A DNA stretch of 39,233 nt, taken from positions 1-39,233 of the IMG/VR virus record IMGVR_UViG_3300030329_002184. One strand, written 5' to 3'. Position 1 is the first letter of the stretch, and the number at the start of each line of letters is the position of its first letter. This DNA is from a virus. Below are positions 11,917 through 38,873 of the stretch, one piece after another. The notes under the pieces are model-generated. The model made no database searches. It was not told where the DNA came from and saw nothing but the letters and a program-made list of their open reading frames with translations. Both the position numbers and the translations under genes were made by a program.

Positions 11917-12015
11917 ATGGCATTTGATAATACGGTCGTGGGAGCACCAAAGGGGTATGGAAGAACACGGCGACCCAAAGCCTTGTGGAACGATAGCGTT
12001 GTCAGCAACAAGCAG
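11917..12015 (+). repeat. Direct repeat copy A (5' end of the first paralogue)
   Basis: Bases 11917-11966 are identical to 12394-12443, and bases 11984-12015 are identical to 12461-12492, with a 17-base variable stretch between. The repeat is the conserved 5' coding end of the duplicated genes. Confidence 0.9.
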
Positions 12016-12384
12016 AACGGCACCAGCGTGGCTATGGTGGGCGCCGCATCAGACTTGTCTGCTACACTAACTTCCGTAGTTGCTGGGCAGAATGGCTATT
12101 CTACTGAGAACCAAAAATTTCTTCATGTGCAGATAGAAAACAATGATGCGAACGAGGATATCACTATTTATGTCTACAATTATGCATTTGGTGCTTGGTC
12201 TCCACTATATTTAGATGTCCAAGCAAACAATGTTAATGGTTCGAAAGCGATTGCAACCTTTAGTTCCGTGGATGGCAAAAAACTATTCGTCCTCCCTATT
12301 GAGGGGATTGACAGGGTAGCCTTCGTTAATGACGGCAGCGTTGATGCAAATCTTGTTGTCCGTGCAGCCTGCACATCGTTTTAG
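11917..12384 (+). CDS. Virion-like protein, first of a tandem pair
   Basis: The 155-aa product starts MAFDNTVVGAPKGYGRTRRP and is otherwise rich in short beta-type segments, with YVYNYAFGAW (about 86-95) and a C-terminal VVRAACTSF. It is clearly paralogous to the next gene: the first 50 nt of the two genes are identical, as are 32 nt shortly downstream. The all-beta look, the abundance-type ribosome binding site and the place just before scaffold and capsid genes suggest a head decoration or other abundant virion protein. I do not recognise the family well enough to name it. Confidence 0.7.
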   Translation: MAFDNTVVGAPKGYGRTRRPKALWNDSVVSNKQNGTSVAMVGAASDLSATLTSVVAGQNGYSTENQKFLHVQIENNDANEDITIYVYNYAFGAWSPLYLDVQANNVNGSKAIATFSSVDGKKLFVLPIEGIDRVAFVNDGSVDANLVVRAACTSF

Positions 12385-12393
12385 GAGTTAAAA

Positions 12394-12492
12394 ATGGCAT
12401 TTGATAATACGGTCGTGGGAGCACCAAAGGGGTATGGAAGAACCCGAAGACCAAAAGAACTGTGGAACGATAGCGTTGTCAGCAACAAGCAG
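12394..12492 (+). repeat. Direct repeat copy B (5' end of the second paralogue)
   Basis: This is the second copy of the 99-base repeat described for 11917-12015, offset by 477 bases. Unequal recombination between copies would delete or amplify one gene. Confidence 0.9.
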
Positions 12493-12888
12493 GCGGCAAC
12501 CACTGTAACTGTCGTTGTCAGCACCGCCTTAAATGATGACATCACCGACACCACTTCAGGGGAAAATGGATATAGCACGGAAAACCAGAGATATCTCCAT
12601 CTTCAGTTAACTGGGGATGACGACGACTCCTACGACGTTACAATTTATGGATACAATTATGCGTTTGGTGCATGGGCTAAATTGTATACGCTCTGTCGAG
12701 GCGCACCTGCCGCCAATCCGACCGTCGAAACTAGCTATGATCCAGCCCTTTATTCGACTATGGATAGCGCAACAGGTGGTCCAAAGCAATTTACCATCGA
12801 GATCGCAGGCATTGACAGAATCGCTTTGACAGCAGACACAAATGATATCGCCAAAATAACGGCAAGAATGGCTTGCAGCACATTTTAA
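12394..12888 (+). CDS. Virion-like protein, second of a tandem pair
   Basis: The 164-aa product shares the N-terminus MAFDNTVVGAPKGYGRTRRP, the WNDSVVSNKQ segment, the YNYAFGAW segment and the C-terminal ARMACSTF with its upstream neighbour, while the middle has diverged and gained a loop of about ten residues near positions 108-120. Order and spacing (9 nt) indicate a local tandem duplication. A decoration or vertex role is inferred from position. The retained identical 5' DNA against diverged middle suggests either gene conversion or strong constraint on the 5' end. Confidence 0.7.
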   Translation: MAFDNTVVGAPKGYGRTRRPKELWNDSVVSNKQAATTVTVVVSTALNDDITDTTSGENGYSTENQRYLHLQLTGDDDDSYDVTIYGYNYAFGAWAKLYTLCRGAPAANPTVETSYDPALYSTMDSATGGPKQFTIEIAGIDRIALTADTNDIAKITARMACSTF

Positions 12889-12901: not shown

Positions 12902-13147
12902 ATGGCATACGGAAATAGAAGGCTACCCAATACCGGCAGAAAAGCCTCACATGTGACAGTAACCCCCAAGAAAAACGAAAGTCCCGAACGCTTAATCAAG
13001 CGCTTTATCAGGAAGTCGAAGAAAGAAAGAATCATTGAGCAGGTTCGAGAGAGAAGATTCTACGAGAAACCTTCGGTAAAACGACGAAAAAAGCGTGCGC
13101 AAAGGGCGAGAACACTTCAAAAGCTTGCCCAAAAGCATCAGGACTAG
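12902..13147 (+). CDS. rpsU-like: Phage-encoded ribosomal protein bS21 homologue
   Basis: The 81-aa product matches bacterial small-subunit protein bS21 across most of its length: after a 20-residue extension it has VTVTPKKNESPERLIKRFIR, then VRERRFYEKPSVKRRKKRAQ, against the E. coli pattern with V.V..NE, a RF.R helix, VR.R.FYEKP and a basic C-terminal helix. bS21 sits at the 30S platform near the anti-Shine-Dalgarno region of 16S rRNA and takes part in initiation. Phage bS21 homologues are known from environmental phages, so exchange for the host protein is a reasonable hypothesis. The gene lies within the head operon 13 nt after the paralogous pair, and so would be expressed late. Confidence 0.88.
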   Translation: MAYGNRRLPNTGRKASHVTVTPKKNESPERLIKRFIRKSKKERIIEQVRERRFYEKPSVKRRKKRAQRARTLQKLAQKHQD

Positions 13148-14320: not shown

Positions 14321-16171
14321 ATGTCTATTTTAGAAAAATTAACAGAAGGTATTGTTAATAGAGATCTCCGTCAAGAAGGTGCTGCTCTTCTCTCCAAGTG
14401 GGAAAGAACAGGACTTCTGGAAGGTCTCAGCAATGACCGCTCCAAGCAAACGATGGCTCGTTTGATGGAAAACCAAGCTAAGGAACTTCTTCGCGAAGTC
14501 GCCGGGTCTACAATGGCTGGCGGTGATGTCGAAGGTTTCGCAGCCGTGGCATTCCCAATCGTTCGTCGAGTGTTTGGTGGTTTAATTGCAAATGATTTGG
14601 TCAGTGTGCAGCCTATGAGCTTGCCGTCTGGTCTGATCTTTTTCCTTGATTTCACCTTTGGTGATAACAAGTTGGCTGAATCGGAAGGTAACTCAATCTA
14701 CGGTGGTGGCGTTGTTGGTCAAGCATTGACTGGCGGTGTTAGCCTCGGTGGTGCGAATGCTGAATTGGGTCCATATGCCCTTAACAACGGCTTTGCTTCT
14801 CCAACTGGCTCGTTCGTCATTGACGGTGACGGTGCTGGAGACTGGAACGATGCCAATGCAGGCATGGCGCTTATTGGTTACGGTGTTGTCGGCAGTGCAG
14901 GCGATACTCAGGTTGGTACGCCGCAGCCTAGCCAAGCGGTTCTTGATGAGTGGTGCTCGTATGATCCCGATCTTTCTGGGTCTGGGGTTGCCGTGGTGGC
15001 GTTTACAGGATCAACTGATGTTAATCAGCAGATTAATCTTCAGAATCTCATTGCCATTGCTACGACTGGCTCGCTTGCGGCTGGGCGCATGGTTCGCCGA
15101 CACACTTCGTATGCGACTGGTTCAAACATGACGGATCCACAAAACTCCAATTTCACTCTGAGAATGGTGTTTGAGACAACCAACACGGACTTGGATGAAG
15201 GTCTGTGGGGTATTGGTGTGGCAGGAGGAGCCAACACTGGTGGTATGATTTCAGAATTGACACGTTCTGGTATCGCGCCCGGTTTCGAATGTGCTATCTA
15301 TGACAACTTCGGTGGTACACCTTCGGCTGGAAGCTCCGAGGCAATCGGTGCAGTTGCAGCGACCACTACTTGGGGTCTTGAGGACTCCGAGCAGATCCCA
15401 GAGATCGACATCAAAGTTGACTCTGTGAGTGTGACCGCTGTTACCAAGAAGCTCAAAGCCAAGTGGACGCCTGAGTTGGGACAGGACTTAAATGCCTATC
15501 ACAACTTGGATGCTGAAGTCGAGCTTACGAGCATCTTGAGTGAGCAAATCGCTCTGGAAATCGATCAAGAGATCCTCAAGGATCTTCTCGTCGGTGCCAA
15601 GGCTGGTACATACTACTGGTCGCGTTCGCCCGGTCTGTTCGTGGACAAAACTACTGGTTTAGAGCTTGGTGCTGCTTCGGCTGCTCCTGACTTCACCGGT
15701 ACCGTCTCCGAGTGGTACGAGACTCTTGCCGAGACCATCAATGATGTCTCTGCACAGATCCATCGCAAGACTCTGCGTGGTGGTGCTAACTTCGTGGTGT
15801 GTTCACCCGAGGTTGCCAACATCCTTGAGTTCACTGCTGGATTCCGTGCAAGCGTCACTGCTGATCAGGACAGAGGCTCCATCGGTGCTGTGAACGTTGG
15901 TTCACTTTCTAAGAAGTTCGACGTGTACGTTGATCCTTACTTCCCACGGAACGTTGTTCTTGTCGGTCGGAAGGGTTCTAGCTTCCTTGAAAGCGGCTAT
16001 GTTTACGCCCCGTATGTGCCACTTCAGGTCACGCCGACTATCTTCGGTGTCGAGGACTTCGTGCCCCGCAAGGGTGTCATGACTCGGTACGCCAAGAAGA
16101 TGGTGCGCCCTGATATGTACGGTGTGGTTGTCGTCCAAGGTCTCTTAGGTCAAGCTGGTGCAACTAGCTAA
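14321..16171 (+). CDS. 23: Major capsid protein (gp23-like)
   Basis: The 616-aa product has the typical T4 gp23 pattern: N-terminal propeptide-like region (first ~60 residues, MENQAKELLREVA), the P-domain core with VAFPIVRRVFGGLIANDLVS and QPMSLPSGLIFFLDF, and the C-terminal half with KWTPELGQDLNAYHNLDAE, VEYDPYFPRN-like VDPYFPRNVVLVGRKG and APYVPL. T4 gp23 is 521 aa; the extra length lies mainly in glycine-rich loops at about 120-260. It has a strong AAAGGAGG ribosome binding site and is followed by a strong terminator, as expected for the most highly expressed virion gene. Confidence 0.97.
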   Translation: MSILEKLTEGIVNRDLRQEGAALLSKWERTGLLEGLSNDRSKQTMARLMENQAKELLREVAGSTMAGGDVEGFAAVAFPIVRRVFGGLIANDLVSVQPMSLPSGLIFFLDFTFGDNKLAESEGNSIYGGGVVGQALTGGVSLGGANAELGPYALNNGFASPTGSFVIDGDGAGDWNDANAGMALIGYGVVGSAGDTQVGTPQPSQAVLDEWCSYDPDLSGSGVAVVAFTGSTDVNQQINLQNLIAIATTGSLAAGRMVRRHTSYATGSNMTDPQNSNFTLRMVFETTNTDLDEGLWGIGVAGGANTGGMISELTRSGIAPGFECAIYDNFGGTPSAGSSEAIGAVAATTTWGLEDSEQIPEIDIKVDSVSVTAVTKKLKAKWTPELGQDLNAYHNLDAEVELTSILSEQIALEIDQEILKDLLVGAKAGTYYWSRSPGLFVDKTTGLELGAASAAPDFTGTVSEWYETLAETINDVSAQIHRKTLRGGANFVVCSPEVANILEFTAGFRASVTADQDRGSIGAVNVGSLSKKFDVYVDPYFPRNVVLVGRKGSSFLESGYVYAPYVPLQVTPTIFGVEDFVPRKGVMTRYAKKMVRPDMYGVVVVQGLLGQAGATS

Positions 16172-16866: not shown

Positions 16867-16897
16867 CCCCCTTCCCTTTCTGGGTTGGGGGTTTTTT
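16867..16897 (+). terminator. Intrinsic terminator after the capsid-associated gene
   Basis: CCCCC (16867-16871) and CCC (16874-16876) pair with GGG (16882-16884) and GGGGG (16887-16891), with an internal TT/TT mismatch and a five-base loop. Six T residues follow, then CTTTTT. Confidence 0.9.
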
Positions 16898-16907
16898 CTT
16901 TTTAAGA

Positions 16908-16916
16908 ACTAATTAT
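16908..16916 (+). promoter_or_regulatory. CTANTTA motif, candidate late promoter element
   Basis: ACTAATTAT immediately follows the T-tract of the preceding terminator and lies 31 nt before the ATG of the tubulin-like gene. A terminator followed by this motif is the most convincing context among the copies, since a new transcript must start here. Confidence 0.6.
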
Positions 16917-16947
16917 TGGAGATACGGGGGCTAAAAGGAAGGTAAAT

Positions 16948-17982
16948 ATGAGTGATTTTGACTTTATAGACCATTATGGTGACGACGAAGAAGTAAAAAG
17001 CGAACAACAACTCGATGATAACGATGTAATTTCCTCTCTAAACTGCGCTATTATTGGCGTTGGTGGTGGAGGGGGCAAGATGGCTAAGGCTTTTCTTGAT
17101 ATCGGCTTCAACAAGACGTTGTTGGTGAACACGACCCCCAAAGATATCCCCGAGGGCGTCGATGATAAACATGTCGTTTTAATTCCTGATGCTGATGGCA
17201 TCGGAAAAGACGTTAATTTGGGCAAAACCGTCTTTGCAGACAATGGGGCAGTCGTTGAAGATGCCCTGAGAACCAAGCTAGGCAACGTAAATTGGCTGTT
17301 TGTCCTTGCAGGGGCAGGAGGGGGCACAGGAAGTGCTGTTTCCTCGCTACACGGCGTCTTTGAGCGCTATTTGAAGTCGGTAAGCGCCGAAGGTGAGGTG
17401 GTTTATATCGTTTCTCAGCCAAGTGCCCAAGAGTCGTTGAATTCTACCATTACCAAGAACGCATCTGCGCTTCTTGCTGACGTTGCAGAACATCCTCATA
17501 TCATTATCGACAATGAGCGCCAAGTCAAGCTTTTACGGGGCAAGATAGGGATGCTGGGAATGTATCCTTTCGCGAATATGGCATTTGCCAAGCTCTTCGC
17601 TCAAGTATTGAAGCTCTCTTCGGAACAATCTTCGATTCAATCGTTTGATTCCAAAGATTTAGAGCGTTGTCTGAGGACAAACAAAAGAATGTTTATCGGC
17701 TCTACAATTGTAGCCGATCCTGACATCCCAAACTTGGGAGCTACCATCTTTCAGAACTGCCTGAAGCGCTCCCCGTGTCCTTTGCCAAAGGGTAAGCCAT
17801 CTACAGGCTCTATGTTGCTTGTGGTGACCCCGGAAATGGCTAATGACCCCGATATCAGCCAGCACTTAGATGCTGCCATTTCCTATGTTGGAGGAAGAAC
17901 AGATACTCTGTTCGCTGGCGTCTATGTGAAAGAGAATTTACCCGGTCTTGTAGCCATTCTGATGATGAATGGGCTCGACTAG
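16948..17982 (+). CDS. FtsZ/tubulin-superfamily GTPase
   Basis: The 344-aa protein has the nucleotide-binding signatures of the tubulin/FtsZ superfamily: IIGVGGGGGKMA (35-46), corresponding to the first glycine-rich loop, and VLAGAGGGTGSAVS (119-132), the tubulin signature GGGTGS. Later, SFDSKDLERCL is in the place of the FtsZ synergy loop that supplies catalytic acidic residues, and the C-terminal beta region (SMLLVVTPEM, TLFAGVYVKENL) fits the activation domain. The N-terminal 30 residues are acidic. Phage tubulins such as PhuZ form spindles that position DNA in some jumbo phages; bacterial FtsZ builds the division ring. Here the gene lies between head and neck genes with its own candidate promoter. 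Filament formation and role are inference. Confidence 0.88.
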   Translation: MSDFDFIDHYGDDEEVKSEQQLDDNDVISSLNCAIIGVGGGGGKMAKAFLDIGFNKTLLVNTTPKDIPEGVDDKHVVLIPDADGIGKDVNLGKTVFADNGAVVEDALRTKLGNVNWLFVLAGAGGGTGSAVSSLHGVFERYLKSVSAEGEVVYIVSQPSAQESLNSTITKNASALLADVAEHPHIIIDNERQVKLLRGKIGMLGMYPFANMAFAKLFAQVLKLSSEQSSIQSFDSKDLERCLRTNKRMFIGSTIVADPDIPNLGATIFQNCLKRSPCPLPKGKPSTGSMLLVVTPEMANDPDISQHLDAAISYVGGRTDTLFAGVYVKENLPGLVAILMMNGLD

Positions 17983-18011: not shown

Positions 18012-18338
18012 ATGGGTAAGAAGAGAAGGATTCTTAGGAATCCCAAGTTTGCGAGTTTGAGAAAATTGAGAAAGTGGAATGATCTTGTGACTGCCAACAA
18101 TATACAGGAAGAAGTGAGTCATGAGCCACCCCAAGAGACAGAACCAGTCGTTGAGACGCCAATTTTAAAGTTGGCAGAGAAAGAATTAGCTCCTCCCGAA
18201 GAGGAAACAGAGCCAAAAGTTGTGGAAGCTAAAAAGGCACCTGCTCGAAAGAAGCGGGCTACGACAAAGCCAAAGACAACCCGCGCTAAAGCGAAAAAGA
18301 CAAGTTCTAAGAAGTCAAGCACTTTGTCCACTCGGTGA
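18012..18338 (+). CDS. Small basic protein with lysine/alanine-rich histone-like tail
   Basis: The 108-aa product starts MGKKRRILRNPKFASLRKLR, a basic segment I recall from small proteins next to neck genes of marine phages. An acidic, proline-rich middle (about residues 37-72) follows, and then a C-terminal tail of about 35 residues made almost only of K, A, R, T, S and P, similar in composition to histone H1 or AlgP-type tails. Such a tail would bind nucleic acid without sequence specificity. Virion-packaged DNA binding or binding of host nucleoid are both possible. A good TTGGAGG site precedes it. Confidence 0.7.
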   Translation: MGKKRRILRNPKFASLRKLRKWNDLVTANNIQEEVSHEPPQETEPVVETPILKLAEKELAPPEEETEPKVVEAKKAPARKKRATTKPKTTRAKAKKTSSKKSSTLSTR

Positions 18339-18366: not shown

Positions 18367-19638
18367 ATGGCTATACCCACCTTAACTCCCAAGAGTCAAC
18401 AGAGCGCAGTTGTCCTCCCCGCGACGGGATCAACGACTGATGTATCCTCTGCGTGTCCCTTGGGCATCTATACTGGATCCTCAGACTTTTTGTCGGGAGC
18501 AGCAGATCAGGTAGCCTATACCTATCAGAAGTTGGGTGGGGATGTTCTGGACATCGAAGTGACTTCCGGTTCGATATACGCCAACTATGAAGAGGCGTGC
18601 TTGGAATACTCCTACATTGTGAACACTCATCAGGCGAAGAACATGCTTGGAAGTGTGCTTGGGCAAACCACAGCCAGTTTTGACCACAATGGTGTGATAA
18701 GGGGTGGAGACACCTTAAGCGGCAGCAATGTCGAATTGCGCTATCCTCGTTTTGAGTTGCGGTATGCCCATCGTGTAGGCGATGGCACCTCTTTCGAGGC
18801 GGGATTTGGTGGCAACCAAAATCAATATTCGGCATCCGTAGACCTAGAAACGGGTGTACAGGATTACGATCTCCAGAGCATAATTTCTAGCTCTGCTGTT
18901 GGTTCGAGCAAGGCTTATGGGGGAAAAGTTGGCAACAAGAAAGTCAACATTACCCGAGTCTTTTATAAGACCCCTCAAGCAATGTGGAGGTTTTTCGGCT
19001 ATTACGGCGGCTTGAATGTCGTTGGTAACGGTCAAATTTATGGGTATGGTCAATGGACAGATGATTCCACTTTTGAGGTGGTTCCGGTGTGGCAAAACAA
19101 GATGCAAGCCATGGCTTATGAGGATATGCTTTATACGCGGCTATCCCACTATTCTTACGAGATACACAACAATAAGTTGAGAATATTTCCTGAGCCTACT
19201 TCTAACATCATCTCCAAGATGTGGGTGACGTTCACAATCGAGAATGAGCAGGATAACTGGGATGAATATGCGGATAAAGATATAGGCGCTGAGGGTATCA
19301 ACAACATGAATACGCTGCCTTTCACCAATATTCCATATGCATCCATTAACGCTATCGGAAAACAGTGGATTCGCCGTTTCGCGCTGGCTCTAACCAAAGA
19401 GACTTTGGGGCAGGTTCGAAGTAAGTTTGGGAGTATTCCAATCCCCGGCGAGAGCGTCAATTTAAACGGAGATGCCTTGGTCACTCAGTCAAAAGAAGAA
19501 CAACAGACTCTCAGAGAAGAATTGAAAACCGTTCTGGATGAGCTTACTTACGCTAAGATCGCAGAACAAGATGCAGGAGTCATGAGTAACGTAAATACGT
19601 CACAGAAATTTGTGCCACTAATGATCTATCAGGGGTAA
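18367..19638 (+). CDS. 13: Neck / head-tail adaptor protein (gp13-like)
   Basis: The 423-aa product shows the layout of T4 gp13-type neck proteins: an N-terminal segment with YTYQKLGGDVLDIEV and YEEACLEYSY (about 50-80), and a C-terminal part with IRRFALALTKETLGQVRSKF, IPIPGESVNLNGDAL and a final acidic helix. These proteins sit on the portal and close the filled head for tail joining. T4 gp13 is 309 aa; the extra part lies in the middle. ATG 18367 was chosen because ATG 18363 is out of frame; GGAG is at 18354-18357. The order gp13-gp14-gp15-gp18 that follows supports the call. Confidence 0.8.
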   Translation: MAIPTLTPKSQQSAVVLPATGSTTDVSSACPLGIYTGSSDFLSGAADQVAYTYQKLGGDVLDIEVTSGSIYANYEEACLEYSYIVNTHQAKNMLGSVLGQTTASFDHNGVIRGGDTLSGSNVELRYPRFELRYAHRVGDGTSFEAGFGGNQNQYSASVDLETGVQDYDLQSIISSSAVGSSKAYGGKVGNKKVNITRVFYKTPQAMWRFFGYYGGLNVVGNGQIYGYGQWTDDSTFEVVPVWQNKMQAMAYEDMLYTRLSHYSYEIHNNKLRIFPEPTSNIISKMWVTFTIENEQDNWDEYADKDIGAEGINNMNTLPFTNIPYASINAIGKQWIRRFALALTKETLGQVRSKFGSIPIPGESVNLNGDALVTQSKEEQQTLREELKTVLDELTYAKIAEQDAGVMSNVNTSQKFVPLMIYQG

Positions 19639-34658: not shown

Positions 34659-35843
34659 GTGTTATTTCAAACGCTCGACAACAAGCAAGAATGCGTGGGA
34701 GTCTATCATGATGGAGTATTACTTTTTGGCGAGGATGGAATCGCAAAGGTGGCTGGTGGAACACACACATGGTCATACGCTCCCTACTTGGAAAGAAGCG
34801 AGGCTGAGTATGCTTATTTGTATTGCGGGATTGGGCTGGACATGGTTTGCCCTGAGCACCTTCGTGCCGACTGGGAATTTGTAAATTCTAAGCTCCAAGC
34901 ATTTGTGAGATCGTTCGTCGAGGCTAAAGTATCTCTGGATGATAATTGTTTCTTTGACCTCGTTCCAGAATCCTTTCTCAAGGACTACTGCTATATGAAG
35001 GATCAGATTTGTAAGTTTGTGTTCGAGAATTATGAGAGACCCGCGAACTATGACCACTTGTTGGCAACCAGTAAGTTGCTCCATAAGCTGGCTTTCCAAA
35101 AGCTCAACCTGAACTGGTCGAACATGCGAAGTCAGATTCATCGACAGTCAATTCGAAAGCAAATCAGAAATCTCAGGAAGGTATCCCCATATTGCAAGTA
35201 TAACTTGTTTGGGACCAAGACAGGAAGGCTCACGACAAAAAAGAATAGCTTTCCTATTTTGACCCTTGCCAAAGAAATGCGCCCCGTTATCCAGCCTCAA
35301 AGGGATTTTTTCGTCAGTTTTGACTTCAACGGCGCAGAATTGAGAACTTTGCTTGCTTTGGGAGGGTCTGAGCAGCCCCTAGAGGACATTCATGAGTGGA
35401 ACAGGGTGAACGTATACCGTGAAAATGGAAGCCGAGAAGAGGCTAAAAAACGCCTTTTTTCTTGGCTCTATAATCCGGGTTCTAAGGACCAAATGGCGAA
35501 CAAATTCTATGATCGAGACAGTTTGGTCAAAAAGCACTGGGATGGTGCTTACGTCAACACCCCGTATGGTCGAAAGATCGAAGTCGATAAGCGAAAGGCT
35601 CTCAACTATCTGATTCAGAGCACAACTTCTGATATGGTTTTGGAACAGGCTGTAAAGTTGGATCAATTCTTGGAAGGCTACAAGTCACGAATTGCTTTTA
35701 TCATCCATGATGAGGTGGTCTTGGATATGGACAAGGATGAATCCCACCTTCTGCCCCAGATGGAAGAAATCTTTGCAGACACTCGATTCGGAACTTACAT
35801 GGTTGGCTCGAAAGAAGGTTCCGATTACGGTGTTGCAGCCTAA
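34659..35843 (+). CDS. Minimal family-A (PolA-like) DNA polymerase domain protein
   Basis: The 394-aa product contains the family-A polymerase motifs in order: the FGTKTGRLTTKKNSFP thumb/palm segment (about 184-199), motif A FDFNGAELR with D222 and E227, motif B-like SREEAKKRLFSWLY (R...K......Y), the GRKIEVDKRKALNYLIQSTT segment and motif C IIHDEVVLD with D351/E352. Both catalytic carboxylates are therefore present. It lacks the 3'-5' exonuclease domain; the first 160 residues resemble no domain I know. T4-like phages use a family-B polymerase (gp43), so this is probably an accessory enzyme. The start is GTG 34659 with GAGG 5 nt upstream. It opens a small replication-type group after the tail genes. 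Confidence 0.88.
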   Translation: MLFQTLDNKQECVGVYHDGVLLFGEDGIAKVAGGTHTWSYAPYLERSEAEYAYLYCGIGLDMVCPEHLRADWEFVNSKLQAFVRSFVEAKVSLDDNCFFDLVPESFLKDYCYMKDQICKFVFENYERPANYDHLLATSKLLHKLAFQKLNLNWSNMRSQIHRQSIRKQIRNLRKVSPYCKYNLFGTKTGRLTTKKNSFPILTLAKEMRPVIQPQRDFFVSFDFNGAELRTLLALGGSEQPLEDIHEWNRVNVYRENGSREEAKKRLFSWLYNPGSKDQMANKFYDRDSLVKKHWDGAYVNTPYGRKIEVDKRKALNYLIQSTTSDMVLEQAVKLDQFLEGYKSRIAFIIHDEVVLDMDKDESHLLPQMEEIFADTRFGTYMVGSKEGSDYGVAA

Positions 35844-35863: not shown

Positions 35864-36931
35864 ATGGAATACACGCAAGCATGGCAACGCTTTATCAATG
35901 AGGGCGGTGTCAAGTCTACCAAAACAGACGCCCGTCTTACCCCACAGTTGGTGGTTCAGGCAATAGACGTATATAAGAGGGTGTTGGCAGACTTTAATCG
36001 CTGGCTGGAACGAGAGAATCAAGCGCCCGTCCGCCCTGTTCGTCCAGTTGGATCTGTAACATATGCCCAGCGTGATTTGCAAGATGGTACCGATGTGATT
36101 TATGGCGATGTGGACTATTTGGTTGAATTTCCACCACCACCATCCGCAGGAGAAGAATATACGGAGGCGAGAAAAGAAGAGAATGCGATGAAGCGCAAGT
36201 ACCGAAAGCTTTTCACGGCATTTCTAAATTCTGATATGGTAACCCCAGAAGTTGACATTTACGAGACGATGGCAGAAAACTCCGATCCGTTTATGGTCAT
36301 TTTGGAGGCACATCCCGGCATTCTGGTGCAGGTCGATACAGTCATCACCTTTCCTGATTATGCTGACTGGCTCTCTACACGCTATACGCCAGAGCGAGGG
36401 CTCAAAGGGTATACGATTGGGAAACTTTATAAAGCGCTGGGGGACATGTTCCCTCTGACCATCGGAACGGAAGGTGTCATCGCTCGCAAGAAAGATGGAC
36501 ATTTAGTGACCGGAAAGCTAAGGAAAGGTGTCGAGCTAGAGATTGTAAGCAAGAGCCCTAGAACATTCTTGCTTGATATTGTCGATTATGTGATCGAGGA
36601 AGACAATCCAGAGATCCATCCCGACCTCCAAAAGCACGGAGGCATGACAGGTGAGATAACCCTCCGCAAGCTGGCACAAGGTATCCGAGCACTGGGCTTA
36701 ACGCTTGAGCTTAACGAGTATATGCGTGCTTCTGACTTTATTTCCAAAGTCCTCATGAATTATGAAGAGGGCTTAGAGGAACACAGGTCGAGAACCACAA
36801 AAAGGATAGAAAATAAAATTTCTCAGTTGCAAGATTCTTCACAACGTGCTAAGTTAGAGAAGAAGATAAAGGAAATAGACGAAATCAATGCGAAAGCGTT
36901 GGAGGCAGTCGCTCCAGAATTGAGGGTTTAA
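35864..36931 (+). CDS. Nucleotidyltransferase-fold protein
   Basis: The 355-aa product has the core of a polymerase-beta-type nucleotidyltransferase: GS at 63-64 in PVGSVTYA, then a strand with YGDVDYLVEF (D82, D84), and a third acidic strand ILVQVDTVITF (D158). The glycine-serine plus DxD plus D set would bind NTP and two metals. The C-terminal part (residues about 300-345) is a charged helix, possibly coiled coil. Similar proteins are, as I recall, encoded in marine T4-like phages and usually annotated only as putative nucleotidyltransferases. It lies 20 nt after the PolA-like gene and is coupled to the tubulin-like gene. The substrate is unknown: nucleotide, RNA end or protein are all possible. 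Confidence 0.75.
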   Translation: MEYTQAWQRFINEGGVKSTKTDARLTPQLVVQAIDVYKRVLADFNRWLERENQAPVRPVRPVGSVTYAQRDLQDGTDVIYGDVDYLVEFPPPPSAGEEYTEARKEENAMKRKYRKLFTAFLNSDMVTPEVDIYETMAENSDPFMVILEAHPGILVQVDTVITFPDYADWLSTRYTPERGLKGYTIGKLYKALGDMFPLTIGTEGVIARKKDGHLVTGKLRKGVELEIVSKSPRTFLLDIVDYVIEEDNPEIHPDLQKHGGMTGEITLRKLAQGIRALGLTLELNEYMRASDFISKVLMNYEEGLEEHRSRTTKRIENKISQLQDSSQRAKLEKKIKEIDEINAKALEAVAPELRV

Positions 36932-37800
36932 TGAACATTGTTGGACTGGGTAGCGCAGGCTGTGCAATTGCTGAAGCACTGAGCAAATATCCCCAATACA
37001 ATATTTATAAGATTGATGCTGTTGCTACGAGCGACTTTGATTTCGCAAATGCTTACGAGGATCCCGCTGGGACTAATTTCTTTGGCATTGAGGAAAAGCA
37101 ACACCCCGAAGAGTATGAAGCCGAGATACGGGGATTGAAAACTTTCTTTCAAGGGATTGACGGTGAGGTGGTCTTCATCCTGTCAGGGGGAGCCAAGATC
37201 GCCGGAGCCTCTTTGGTCATTTTGCAGCATTTGAAGCATTGCAAGGTTACAGTCCTGTATGTCAAGCCAAACTGTGACACACTGGAAGATGTGAAGGTGA
37301 GAATGCACAATGTCTGCTTCGGGGTTCTTCAGGAATATGCAAGATCTGCTGTATTTGAGCGCCTTATCATTGTGGACAATAACGTAGTCGAGAGTATCTT
37401 GGGAGAGGTTCCCATTATCGGCTATTACGACAAACTTAATGAACTTATTGTGTGGATTTTCCACATGCTCAATGTTCTCAAGAATTCTAAACCTGTGATG
37501 GGGAAAATTAACGAAACCAAAGTAACATCACGCCTGACCAGCATTGGCACCGTGGATTTTGATAGTGGTGAGGAAAAAATGTTTTTTTCCCTTGACAACA
37601 TCCGAGAAAAGGGTTATTTTTATCTCTTAAGGAAGGAAGATTTGACATCAAGTGGCAGCTTGCTGAAGAAGATAACTGAGCAGGTTAAAAGCTTGGAGGA
37701 AGAAGGAGCTAGATCTTCATACGCAATTTATTCTTCCGAATACGATCAGAATTATGTTTTCTGTATGACTCACACACCACATATCCAAGGGGGTAATTAA
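36931..37800 (+). CDS. Degenerate tubulin/FtsZ-like protein
   Basis: The 289-aa product begins MNIVGLGSAGCAIAEALSKY, which fits the first glycine loop of FtsZ/tubulin, and has VVFILSGGAKIAGASLVILQ (81-100) exactly where the GGGTGS signature would be, but with SGGAKIAGAS in its place. The spacing between the two loops is similar to that in tubulin-type proteins. The central helical part (YARSAVFERLIIVDNN, PIIGYYDKLNELIVWIF) looks like the H7 region. It may have lost GTP hydrolysis or binding. A Rossmann-like nucleotide-binding protein is the alternative reading. It overlaps the nucleotidyltransferase stop codon by one base. Confidence 0.7.
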   Translation: MNIVGLGSAGCAIAEALSKYPQYNIYKIDAVATSDFDFANAYEDPAGTNFFGIEEKQHPEEYEAEIRGLKTFFQGIDGEVVFILSGGAKIAGASLVILQHLKHCKVTVLYVKPNCDTLEDVKVRMHNVCFGVLQEYARSAVFERLIIVDNNVVESILGEVPIIGYYDKLNELIVWIFHMLNVLKNSKPVMGKINETKVTSRLTSIGTVDFDSGEEKMFFSLDNIREKGYFYLLRKEDLTSSGSLLKKITEQVKSLEEEGARSSYAIYSSEYDQNYVFCMTHTPHIQGGN

Positions 37801-38117: not shown

Positions 38118-38873
38118 ATGGGTATCAATCTAGAAAAGATGCGAGCAAAACTCGCAGCATTACAAAACAAGGGTGGCAACAACAATTTTTGGAAGCCGCA
38201 GGATGGGGAGCAGACGATTCGTATCGTCCCAACCGCTGATGGCGATCCTTTCAAGGATTACTGGTTCCACTATAACTTAGGGAAGAATAACGGCTTCCTG
38301 AGCCCGAAGAAGAACTTCGGGGAAAGCGATCCTCTGGATGAGTTCATTCGCAACCTCTTCAACGAGGGAACGGAAGATAGCATCAAGATGGCTAAGAACC
38401 TTATGGCGCGGCAACGTTTCTTTGCTCCCGTCTTGGTTCGCGGCGAGGAAGACAAGGGTGTCCGTATCTGGGGCTTCGGCAAGATGGCTTATCAACAGCT
38501 TCTTGAACTGGTCCTGAATCCCGATTACGGTGATATTACGGACACTGAGGAAGGCACTGACCTTACTATCAAGTATGGTAAGCCTCCCGGCGCGGCTTTC
38601 CCGCAAACCACAATCACACCACGTCGGCGTACTTCGCCACTCTGCGACGATGCAGTAGGCGGTCCCGATAAGTGTGCCGAGCTTCTCGAAAGCATCCCTG
38701 AATTCGAGACACTCTTTGAACGTAAGACCCCCGAAGAGGTGGGTGCTATGCTCGACGAGTGGCTAGAGGGCGATGCTGGAGCCGAAGACGGTAAGGAGAC
38801 GACAAAGTATTCAACAACTGAGACTGATCAGGTGAAGGCTGCTTTCGACGATCTTCTGAGCGCGAGTGCGTAA
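38118..38873 (+). CDS. 32: Single-stranded DNA-binding protein (gp32-like)
   Basis: The 251-aa product has the elements of T4 gp32: an N-terminal basic segment for cooperativity (INLEKMRAKLAALQNK), the OB-fold entry with NNFWKPQDGEQTIRIVPTAD, then PFKDYWFHYNLG, a core with KMAKNLMARQRFFAPVLVRG and GVRIWGFGKMAYQQLLEL, and an acidic C-terminal tail ending with DDLLSASA for partner binding. It lacks the histidine-three-cysteine zinc site of T4 gp32; only C176 and C186 remain near a loop. It coats ssDNA in replication, recombination and repair. T4 gp32 is 301 aa. An AATAGGAGA site precedes the ATG. Confidence 0.93.
   Translation: MGINLEKMRAKLAALQNKGGNNNFWKPQDGEQTIRIVPTADGDPFKDYWFHYNLGKNNGFLSPKKNFGESDPLDEFIRNLFNEGTEDSIKMAKNLMARQRFFAPVLVRGEEDKGVRIWGFGKMAYQQLLELVLNPDYGDITDTEEGTDLTIKYGKPPGAAFPQTTITPRRRTSPLCDDAVGGPDKCAELLESIPEFETLFERKTPEEVGAMLDEWLEGDAGAEDGKETTKYSTTETDQVKAAFDDLLSASA

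Follow-up and report, generated by a model that had tools for sequence, protein, structure and literature searches.

Phage tubulins have been studied chiefly as PhuZ of the nucleus-forming jumbo phages, in which PhuZ is an accessory gene. The filaments formed by PhuZ centre the phage DNA and carry capsids (PMC4244570, PMC12908238), and a C-terminal helix, H11, together with an acidic knuckle is the mark of the PhuZ and TubZ proteins (PMC3678025). In this study, a viral DNA stretch of 39,233 nucleotides (IMG/VR record IMGVR_UViG_3300030329_002184), referred to here as the window, was analysed. Its plus strand encodes at positions 16948–17982 a 344-residue protein of the tubulin/FtsZ superfamily, which we call TUB1. 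The protein resembles PhuZ of the Chimalliviridae (phiKZ, 201phi2-1, Goslar) in being a phage tubulin, of ~330 residues in PhuZ, with a G-rich T4 loop and T7 aspartates, and the PHROG annotated as 'tubulin PhuZ' matched 12 of 17 TUB1 family members, with a best value of 3.5e-6. The two differ in their termini, as the acidic tail of TUB1 is N-terminal whereas H11 and the acidic knuckle are features of PhuZ.

Sequence signature and predicted fold of TUB1

The TUB1 open reading frame starts with ATG and has the ribosome-binding stretch AAGGAAGG upstream. An acidic N-terminal tail (residues 1–30, containing DFDFIDHYG) is followed by the first glycine loop, T1 (GVGGGGG, residues 37–43), the T4 loop GGGTGS (residues 124–129), N189, the H7 helix with N210, and the T7 pair D234xxD237 within the segment SFDSKDL (residues 232–238). 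The activation domain (residues 247–343) completes the protein, which carries no C-terminal extension. N189 and N210, positioned by alignment with FtsZ, are presumably the guanine-contact residues, and the HMMER alignment paired D234 and D237 with the two aspartates in the T7 loop of the S. aureus FtsZ (NLDFAD). Both glycine loops, with GGGTGS at 124–129, and the SFDSKDL segment had been reported in a preliminary description of this DNA, and all were located as described. Residues G124–S129, N189, N210, D234 and D237 were invariant in 50 of 50 aligned TUB1 homologues, as were, in the first loop, G39, G40, G42 and K44.

The Pfam Tubulin profile matched TUB1 at 3.6e-7 with 31.1 bits, slightly below the curated cut-off of 33 bits, which was cleared by the TUB1 homologue in 8 of 11 related large contigs. 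The search of PDB sequences retrieved archaeal CetZ (3zid, 7.6e-10, over residues 40–340) along with many FtsZ structures, and FtsZ matches down to 7e-9 were obtained when the alignment of 17 TUB1 homologues served as the query. PHROGs and NCBIfam likewise assigned the protein to tubulin/FtsZ. Given the Pfam and CetZ values and the invariance of the motifs in 50 homologues, the signature lies far above chance. The earlier reading of TUB1 as a tubulin/FtsZ-like protein with intact GTP-binding and T7 signatures is therefore confirmed at the level of sequence and predicted structure, as the Pfam match, the CetZ match and the two-domain predicted fold agree.

The AlphaFold2 model of TUB1, built from 17 homologues, had a moderate mean pLDDT of 76.8, and its confidence was low precisely at the T7 loop (residues 225–243). 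The predicted elements followed the tubulin order, namely a Rossmann GTPase domain, H7 (residues 203–223), the T7 loop and an activation domain closed by the last strand, S10 (residues 334–343). A plain Rossmann fold devoid of H7 and the second domain was thus not obtained, as both were present in the model. The Rossmann dehydrogenase reading was also rejected at the sequence level, where PDB matches of the 3-hydroxyisobutyrate dehydrogenase kind were limited to residues 20–64 around the first glycine loop, leaving the second domain uncovered.

All 50 Foldseek rows listed for the TUB1 model belonged to the tubulin/FtsZ superfamily with both domains aligned, led by CetZ (1e-18) and followed by FtsZ and TubZ; the Foldseek and VIA alignments spanned residues 30–343. 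The VIA comparison gave a Z score of 22.9 for CetZ2 (263 residues, rmsd 11.4), 22.7 for CetZ1 (183 residues, 2.2 Å) and about 20 for FtsZ, while the absence of PhuZ among the 50 VIA matches listed excludes nothing. TubZ was compared with TUB1 through these fold matches. Over the full length, the rmsd of the model against solved structures was ~14 and the domains did not superpose, so that the model is no reliable guide to how the two domains are oriented.

To the FtsZ equivalog TIGR00065, TUB1 gave a partial match (3.1e-7, 30 bits) that did not reach the cut-off of 295.2, and the BLASTP comparison with phiKZ PhuZ was not significant (E 0.28). The family tree included three FtsZ sequences, three PhuZ sequences and one partial CetZ. 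PhuZ and FtsZ formed separate clades (that of PhuZ starred) with TUB1 outside both, a placement made weak by the very long branches of 7 to 9 changes per site that led from TUB1 to FtsZ, PhuZ and CetZ. The partial CetZ row, with a branch length of 7.2, was unplaced. All TUB1 homologues stop directly past the last strand, with neither the FtsZ linker nor its conserved terminal peptide, and since the protein ends there, it also has neither the helix H11 nor the acidic knuckle that PhuZ and TubZ carry at the C terminus. The acidic N-terminal extension of the homologues carries a conserved DFDFIDHY-like motif. These sequence and model comparisons suggest that TUB1 represents a distinct family of the superfamily, with CetZ the nearest among solved proteins and membership of CetZ itself not clear. 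The label FtsZ-type, used in the preliminary description, is consequently not retained, as the nearest solved fold is CetZ and the tree sets TUB1 apart as its own family.

Phage type, gene setting and conservation

The virion block of the window comprises the genes for terminase, portal, gp21 protease, S21 protein, a core-like protein, gp23, neck, sheath, tube and tape measure, and is followed by part of a DNA polymerase and gp32. PHROGs identified the terminase, portal, protease, gp23, sheath and tube, which upholds the T4-like structural setting claimed earlier. TUB1 lies between the gp23-like major capsid protein (14321–16171, plus strand; PHROG 138, 9.5e-74) and a neck or head-tail adaptor-like protein (18367–19638, plus strand; PHROG 211, 1.2e-11). 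The gene adjoining TUB1 (18012–18338, plus strand) encodes a small Lys-rich protein and precedes or follows TUB1 in those relatives where TUB1 has this location. The phage, marine and uncultured, is of the T4 type, with the core virion genes of T4 present. Because the annotated proteins closest to the window gp23 are those of Flavobacterium phage immuto, Microcystis phage Mel-JY01 and Rhodothermus RM378, it probably belongs to the Far-T4 branch. Marine Far-T4 phages have been tied to Flavobacteriales or Bacteroidetes (PMC13037479, PMC7198788). Three of the four TUB1 matches in bacterial genome contigs came from Flavobacteriales MAG bins, and these are probably phage contigs that were binned with their hosts. 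The accessible parts of the Far-T4 genome paper (PMC4360716) and of PMC7198788 and PMC13037479 contain no mention of tubulin or FtsZ.

Several further features of the window and its relatives were observed. The ribosomal protein S21 gene (12902–13147; Pfam 5.4e-15) lies within the head operon, and Microcystis phage Mel-JY01 has an annotated S21 gene at a comparable location. Tandem paralogues at 11917–12384 and 12394–12888 have the common N terminus MAFDNTVVGAPKGYGRTRRPK, and a RecF/SMC-like ATPase of 929 residues (8–2797; Pfam 1.2e-11) adjoins the terminase block. Around TUB1 in four relatives (L013, L020, L046 and L075), several neighbouring proteins begin with a common N terminus, for instance MKITRKQLENLIREEL or MKLLFENWRKFL, which may serve to target internal proteins, cut by the gp21 protease, to the head.

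Homologues of TUB1 were found at no fewer than 80 loci in uncultured viral contigs, with 55–97% identity to the window protein. In the window and some 18 relatives, TUB1 occupies the gp23–neck interval; about 32 others have it upstream of the terminase genes, three have it beside the protease, and one has it between the S21 and core genes. In nine large relatives, the gp23–neck interval was devoid of TUB1. As relatives carry the gene at several other places, its address in the head-tail operon is lineage-specific. The unusual location in a T4-like operon, remarked upon in the preliminary description, was thus borne out as a setting but not as a fixed position. Overall, 54 of 80 relatives had TUB1 amid genes for the virion or for packaging, and 26 of 80 had it apart from the virion genes of the window, so the link to virion genes is not absolute. 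No conserved partner gene of TUB1 emerged.

Against its nearest relatives, TUB1 showed a dN/dS of about 0.02 (Nei-Gojobori; dN 0.016–0.019, dS 0.77–0.99). It was better conserved than gp23 at all 12 loci compared, than the neck protein at all 15 and than the portal at 25 of 28; its conservation was also greater than that of the tube and similar to that of the terminase. TUB1 is under very strong purifying selection, and this extreme constraint therefore points to a central job in this phage group.

In contrast to the genomes that harbour PhuZ, the TUB1 phage is T4-type, and neither a match to chimallin nor a beta subunit of RNA polymerase was found. The beta subunit (PF00562) was found in none of nine TUB1 contigs of 131–236 kb, which may be incomplete, against 14 of 14 control genomes. 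The phiKZ chimallin (gp54) had no match in seven of these nine contigs in a weak, single-sequence search for which phiKZ was the positive control, ChmA being a protein that diverges. As neither the beta subunit nor a phiKZ-like chimallin was detected in these contigs of up to 236 kb, the TUB1 phages show no sign of a nucleus.

The motif CTA[ACT]TTA[CT] occurred 17 times on the plus strand of the window and not at all on the minus strand, against a Markov expectation of 2.3 per strand on average and 7 at most. Eleven of the 17 copies were located within 90 nt upstream of gene starts, including those of TUB1, the sheath, the tube and the gene preceding TUB2 (a second protein of interest, described below); example sites on the plus strand are 2799, 16909, 18339, 21017, 24633, 26413, 29212 and 35840. 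The copy at 16909–16918 (CTAATTATTG, plus strand) lies 39 nt before the TUB1 ATG, and like motifs were present upstream of TUB1 in several relatives (L001, L003, L004 and L058). The T4 late promoter TATAAATA was tried as the promoter of TUB1 and rejected, as no site was present near the gene and the CTAWTTAY motif was found instead. CTA[ACT]TTA[CT] is a probable phage-specific promoter element that differs from the T4 TATAAATA. The strand bias, the placement at gene starts and the similar motifs in relatives argue for a candidate promoter of TUB1 itself; the earlier proposal of an own late promoter is thereby kept in respect of a candidate motif and abandoned in respect of the T4 sequence. A terminator-like hairpin with a T-run, read from the sequence, lies between TUB1 and the upstream gene (16874–16891, plus strand), and terminator-like sites in the TUB1 region were not commoner than in shuffles.

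TUB2, a second predicted tubulin fold

The preliminary description had missed a second protein of the window, TUB2 (36931–37800, plus strand; 289 residues), which is encoded between the DNA polymerase gene and gp32. The polymerase gene (34659–35843, plus strand; Pfam DNA_pol_A, 3e-13) corresponds to the C-terminal part of an A-type enzyme and lies just upstream of TUB2 in the cluster of the relatives, while the gp32-like ssDNA-binding protein (38118–38873, plus strand; Pfam gp32, 2e-11) is downstream. With only 394 residues, a GTG start and matches to the C-terminal part of phage polymerases, the former is a split or reduced DNA polymerase.

Alone, TUB2 gave no significant family match, and the Pfam results for 23 members were equivocal (TrkA_N at 8e-5 in five, Tubulin at 0.03 in four). 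The model built from 23 homologues had a pLDDT of 90.5 and a pTM of 0.89. Foldseek matched it to FtsZ (1.5e-13, TM 0.62–0.69), and VIA matched it to CetZ (Z 23.8; 255 residues, 2.9 Å) and then to TubZ, FtsZ and tubulins, with residues 1–289 covered. From the model, we are confident that TUB2 adopts a two-domain tubulin fold. Homology of TUB1 and TUB2 by profile alignment was tried and set aside, since hhalign gave a probability of only 7.5, with the aligned stretch being the expected T4-to-H7 region; the assignment of TUB2 stands on structure.

TUB2 retains the T1 loop (GLGxAGC), has a degenerate T4 loop (GAGxISG) and the guanine-contact-like residues N150 and N170, and is devoid of the T7 acid pair and of a C-terminal extension. 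Across 31 homologues, the first loop GLGxAG was kept, the T4 loop was GAGxISG-like, N150 and N170 were present in 29–30 of the 31, and no conserved acid was seen at the expected T7 position (residues 186–200). The gene was always within the polymerase–gp32 cluster where the contig covered that stretch. By tblastn, neither TUB1 nor TUB2 had relatives among cultured phages, with no TUB1 match in 50,697 phage records (E 0.01), and a profile search of immuto, RM378 and Mel-JY01 found neither protein.

TUB1 and TUB2 might form a two-component system in which TUB2, as a nucleotide-binding but non-activating subunit, caps, nucleates or alternates with TUB1, somewhat like alpha/beta tubulin. This reading is compatible with, and not exclusive of, the filament explanation given below for TUB1. 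It is consistent with the full tubulin fold of TUB2, in which the T7 acids are gone and the guanine-contact-like Asn is kept, and with the presence of TUB2 in 12 of the 20 IMG/VR TUB1 contigs longer than 60 kb that were searched, and in 9 of the 11 longer than 100 kb. However, no TUB1 was found in contigs of 155 and 159 kb that carry TUB2, on account of which TUB2 may be wider spread than TUB1, and TUB2 was not found in one TUB1 contig of 236 kb. TUB2 also evolves much faster than TUB1, and the two genes are far apart. Taken together, we regard the two-component system as possible but unlikely. Equally tentative is the broader proposal that these nucleus-less T4-type marine phages would have a cytoskeleton of a TUB1 GTPase filament and TUB2 that connects the place of replication with the assembly of virions.

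Proposed role and comparison with known tubulins

Going by what holds across the superfamily, a protein whose T1 and T4 loops, guanine contacts and T7 acids are all intact should assemble into protofilaments that depend on GTP and hydrolyse it between subunits. We propose, with moderate confidence, that TUB1 is a GTP-driven filament that organises the infected cell and places phage DNA or proheads without a nucleus. This role is favoured on the grounds of homology, predicted fold, invariant residues, dN/dS, the predominant setting among virion genes and the precedent of PhuZ. As regards polymerisation, dynamics, cargo and the role of the tail, we infer that TUB1 would bind GTP between subunits, which would stack head to tail into protofilaments, and that D234 and D237 of one subunit would meet the nucleotide of the next, leading to GTP hydrolysis and a dynamic filament. 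TUB1 would be expressed from the common promoter class of the phage, with or beside the virion genes. The filament would place replicating DNA, or bring proheads to the DNA for packaging, with no phage nucleus being involved. The acidic N-terminal tail, with its DFDFIDHYG motif, is a likely docking site for partners and would bind cargo or membrane, a role that belongs to the C-terminal tails in FtsZ and PhuZ.

A different function within the same superfamily would be genome segregation, with TUB1 acting as a TubZ-like tubulin in a carrier or pseudolysogenic state through an adaptor on a centromere. TubZ is among the fold matches of TUB1, and the adjoining small basic protein (18012–18338) could be a DNA-binding adaptor; however, this protein was not seen beside TUB1 at the other positions of the gene, and no TubC-like iteron array was found near TUB1. 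The lack of a TubZ-type C-terminal helix and the setting in a lytic T4-type virion operon also argue against segregation, which we consider quite unlikely. It is very unlikely that TUB1 co-assembles with the host FtsZ or poisons it and so disturbs host division, a possibility that the preliminary description had raised next to the positioning of capsids or DNA. Certain phages do target FtsZ, and the T1, T4 and T7 signatures are common to both proteins, but TUB1 is only about 15–20% identical to FtsZ and very distant from it in the tree. A poison would need just one face, whereas the GTP-site and T7 residues are both kept, and the extreme conservation fits an assembly of its own and not an arms race with FtsZ. 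Lastly, TUB1 could belong to the virion or prohead, perhaps as an internal protein or one associated with the scaffold, and not be a cell-spanning filament. This is suggested by the location between gp23 and neck and, in four further relatives, by the adjacent protease or core gene, but is highly improbable in view of an intact GTPase signature that would be superfluous, a position that is not fixed and the lack of the N terminus common to several neighbours.

Beyond what had been noted for this gene, the TUB1 family is widespread, is under extreme constraint and has a second, cryptic tubulin fold alongside it. A constrained tubulin in abundant T4-type marine phages with no signs of a nucleus suggests that the use of tubulin to organise infected cells predates the phage nucleus or extends beyond it. 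These phages also make it possible to test whether tubulin can transport capsids or DNA without a nuclear shell. TUB2, barely visible to sequence searches, indicates that cytoskeletal proteins of phages can escape notice, and it offers a natural non-activating subunit for study.

Among the known systems, archaeal CetZ is the best solved match of TUB1 both in sequence, over the whole length, and in fold, but the identity is about 20–25%, the branches are very long, and the host and context are wholly different. FtsZ shares the T1, T4 and T7 signatures, as aligned with the S. aureus protein, and differs from TUB1 in its C-terminal linker and conserved peptide and by a very long branch. The uncultured-phage proteins A0A6J5RW92, A0A8S5UFG9 and A0A8S5USZ9 (UniProt/BFVD), which are named FtsZ, cell division protein or tubulin, are the best viral fold matches of TUB2 (TM 0.73); they are longer (347–452 residues) and 11–16% identical to it. 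With such FtsZ-named proteins of uncultured phages already in UniProt, TUB1 is a variant within the known phage tubulins.
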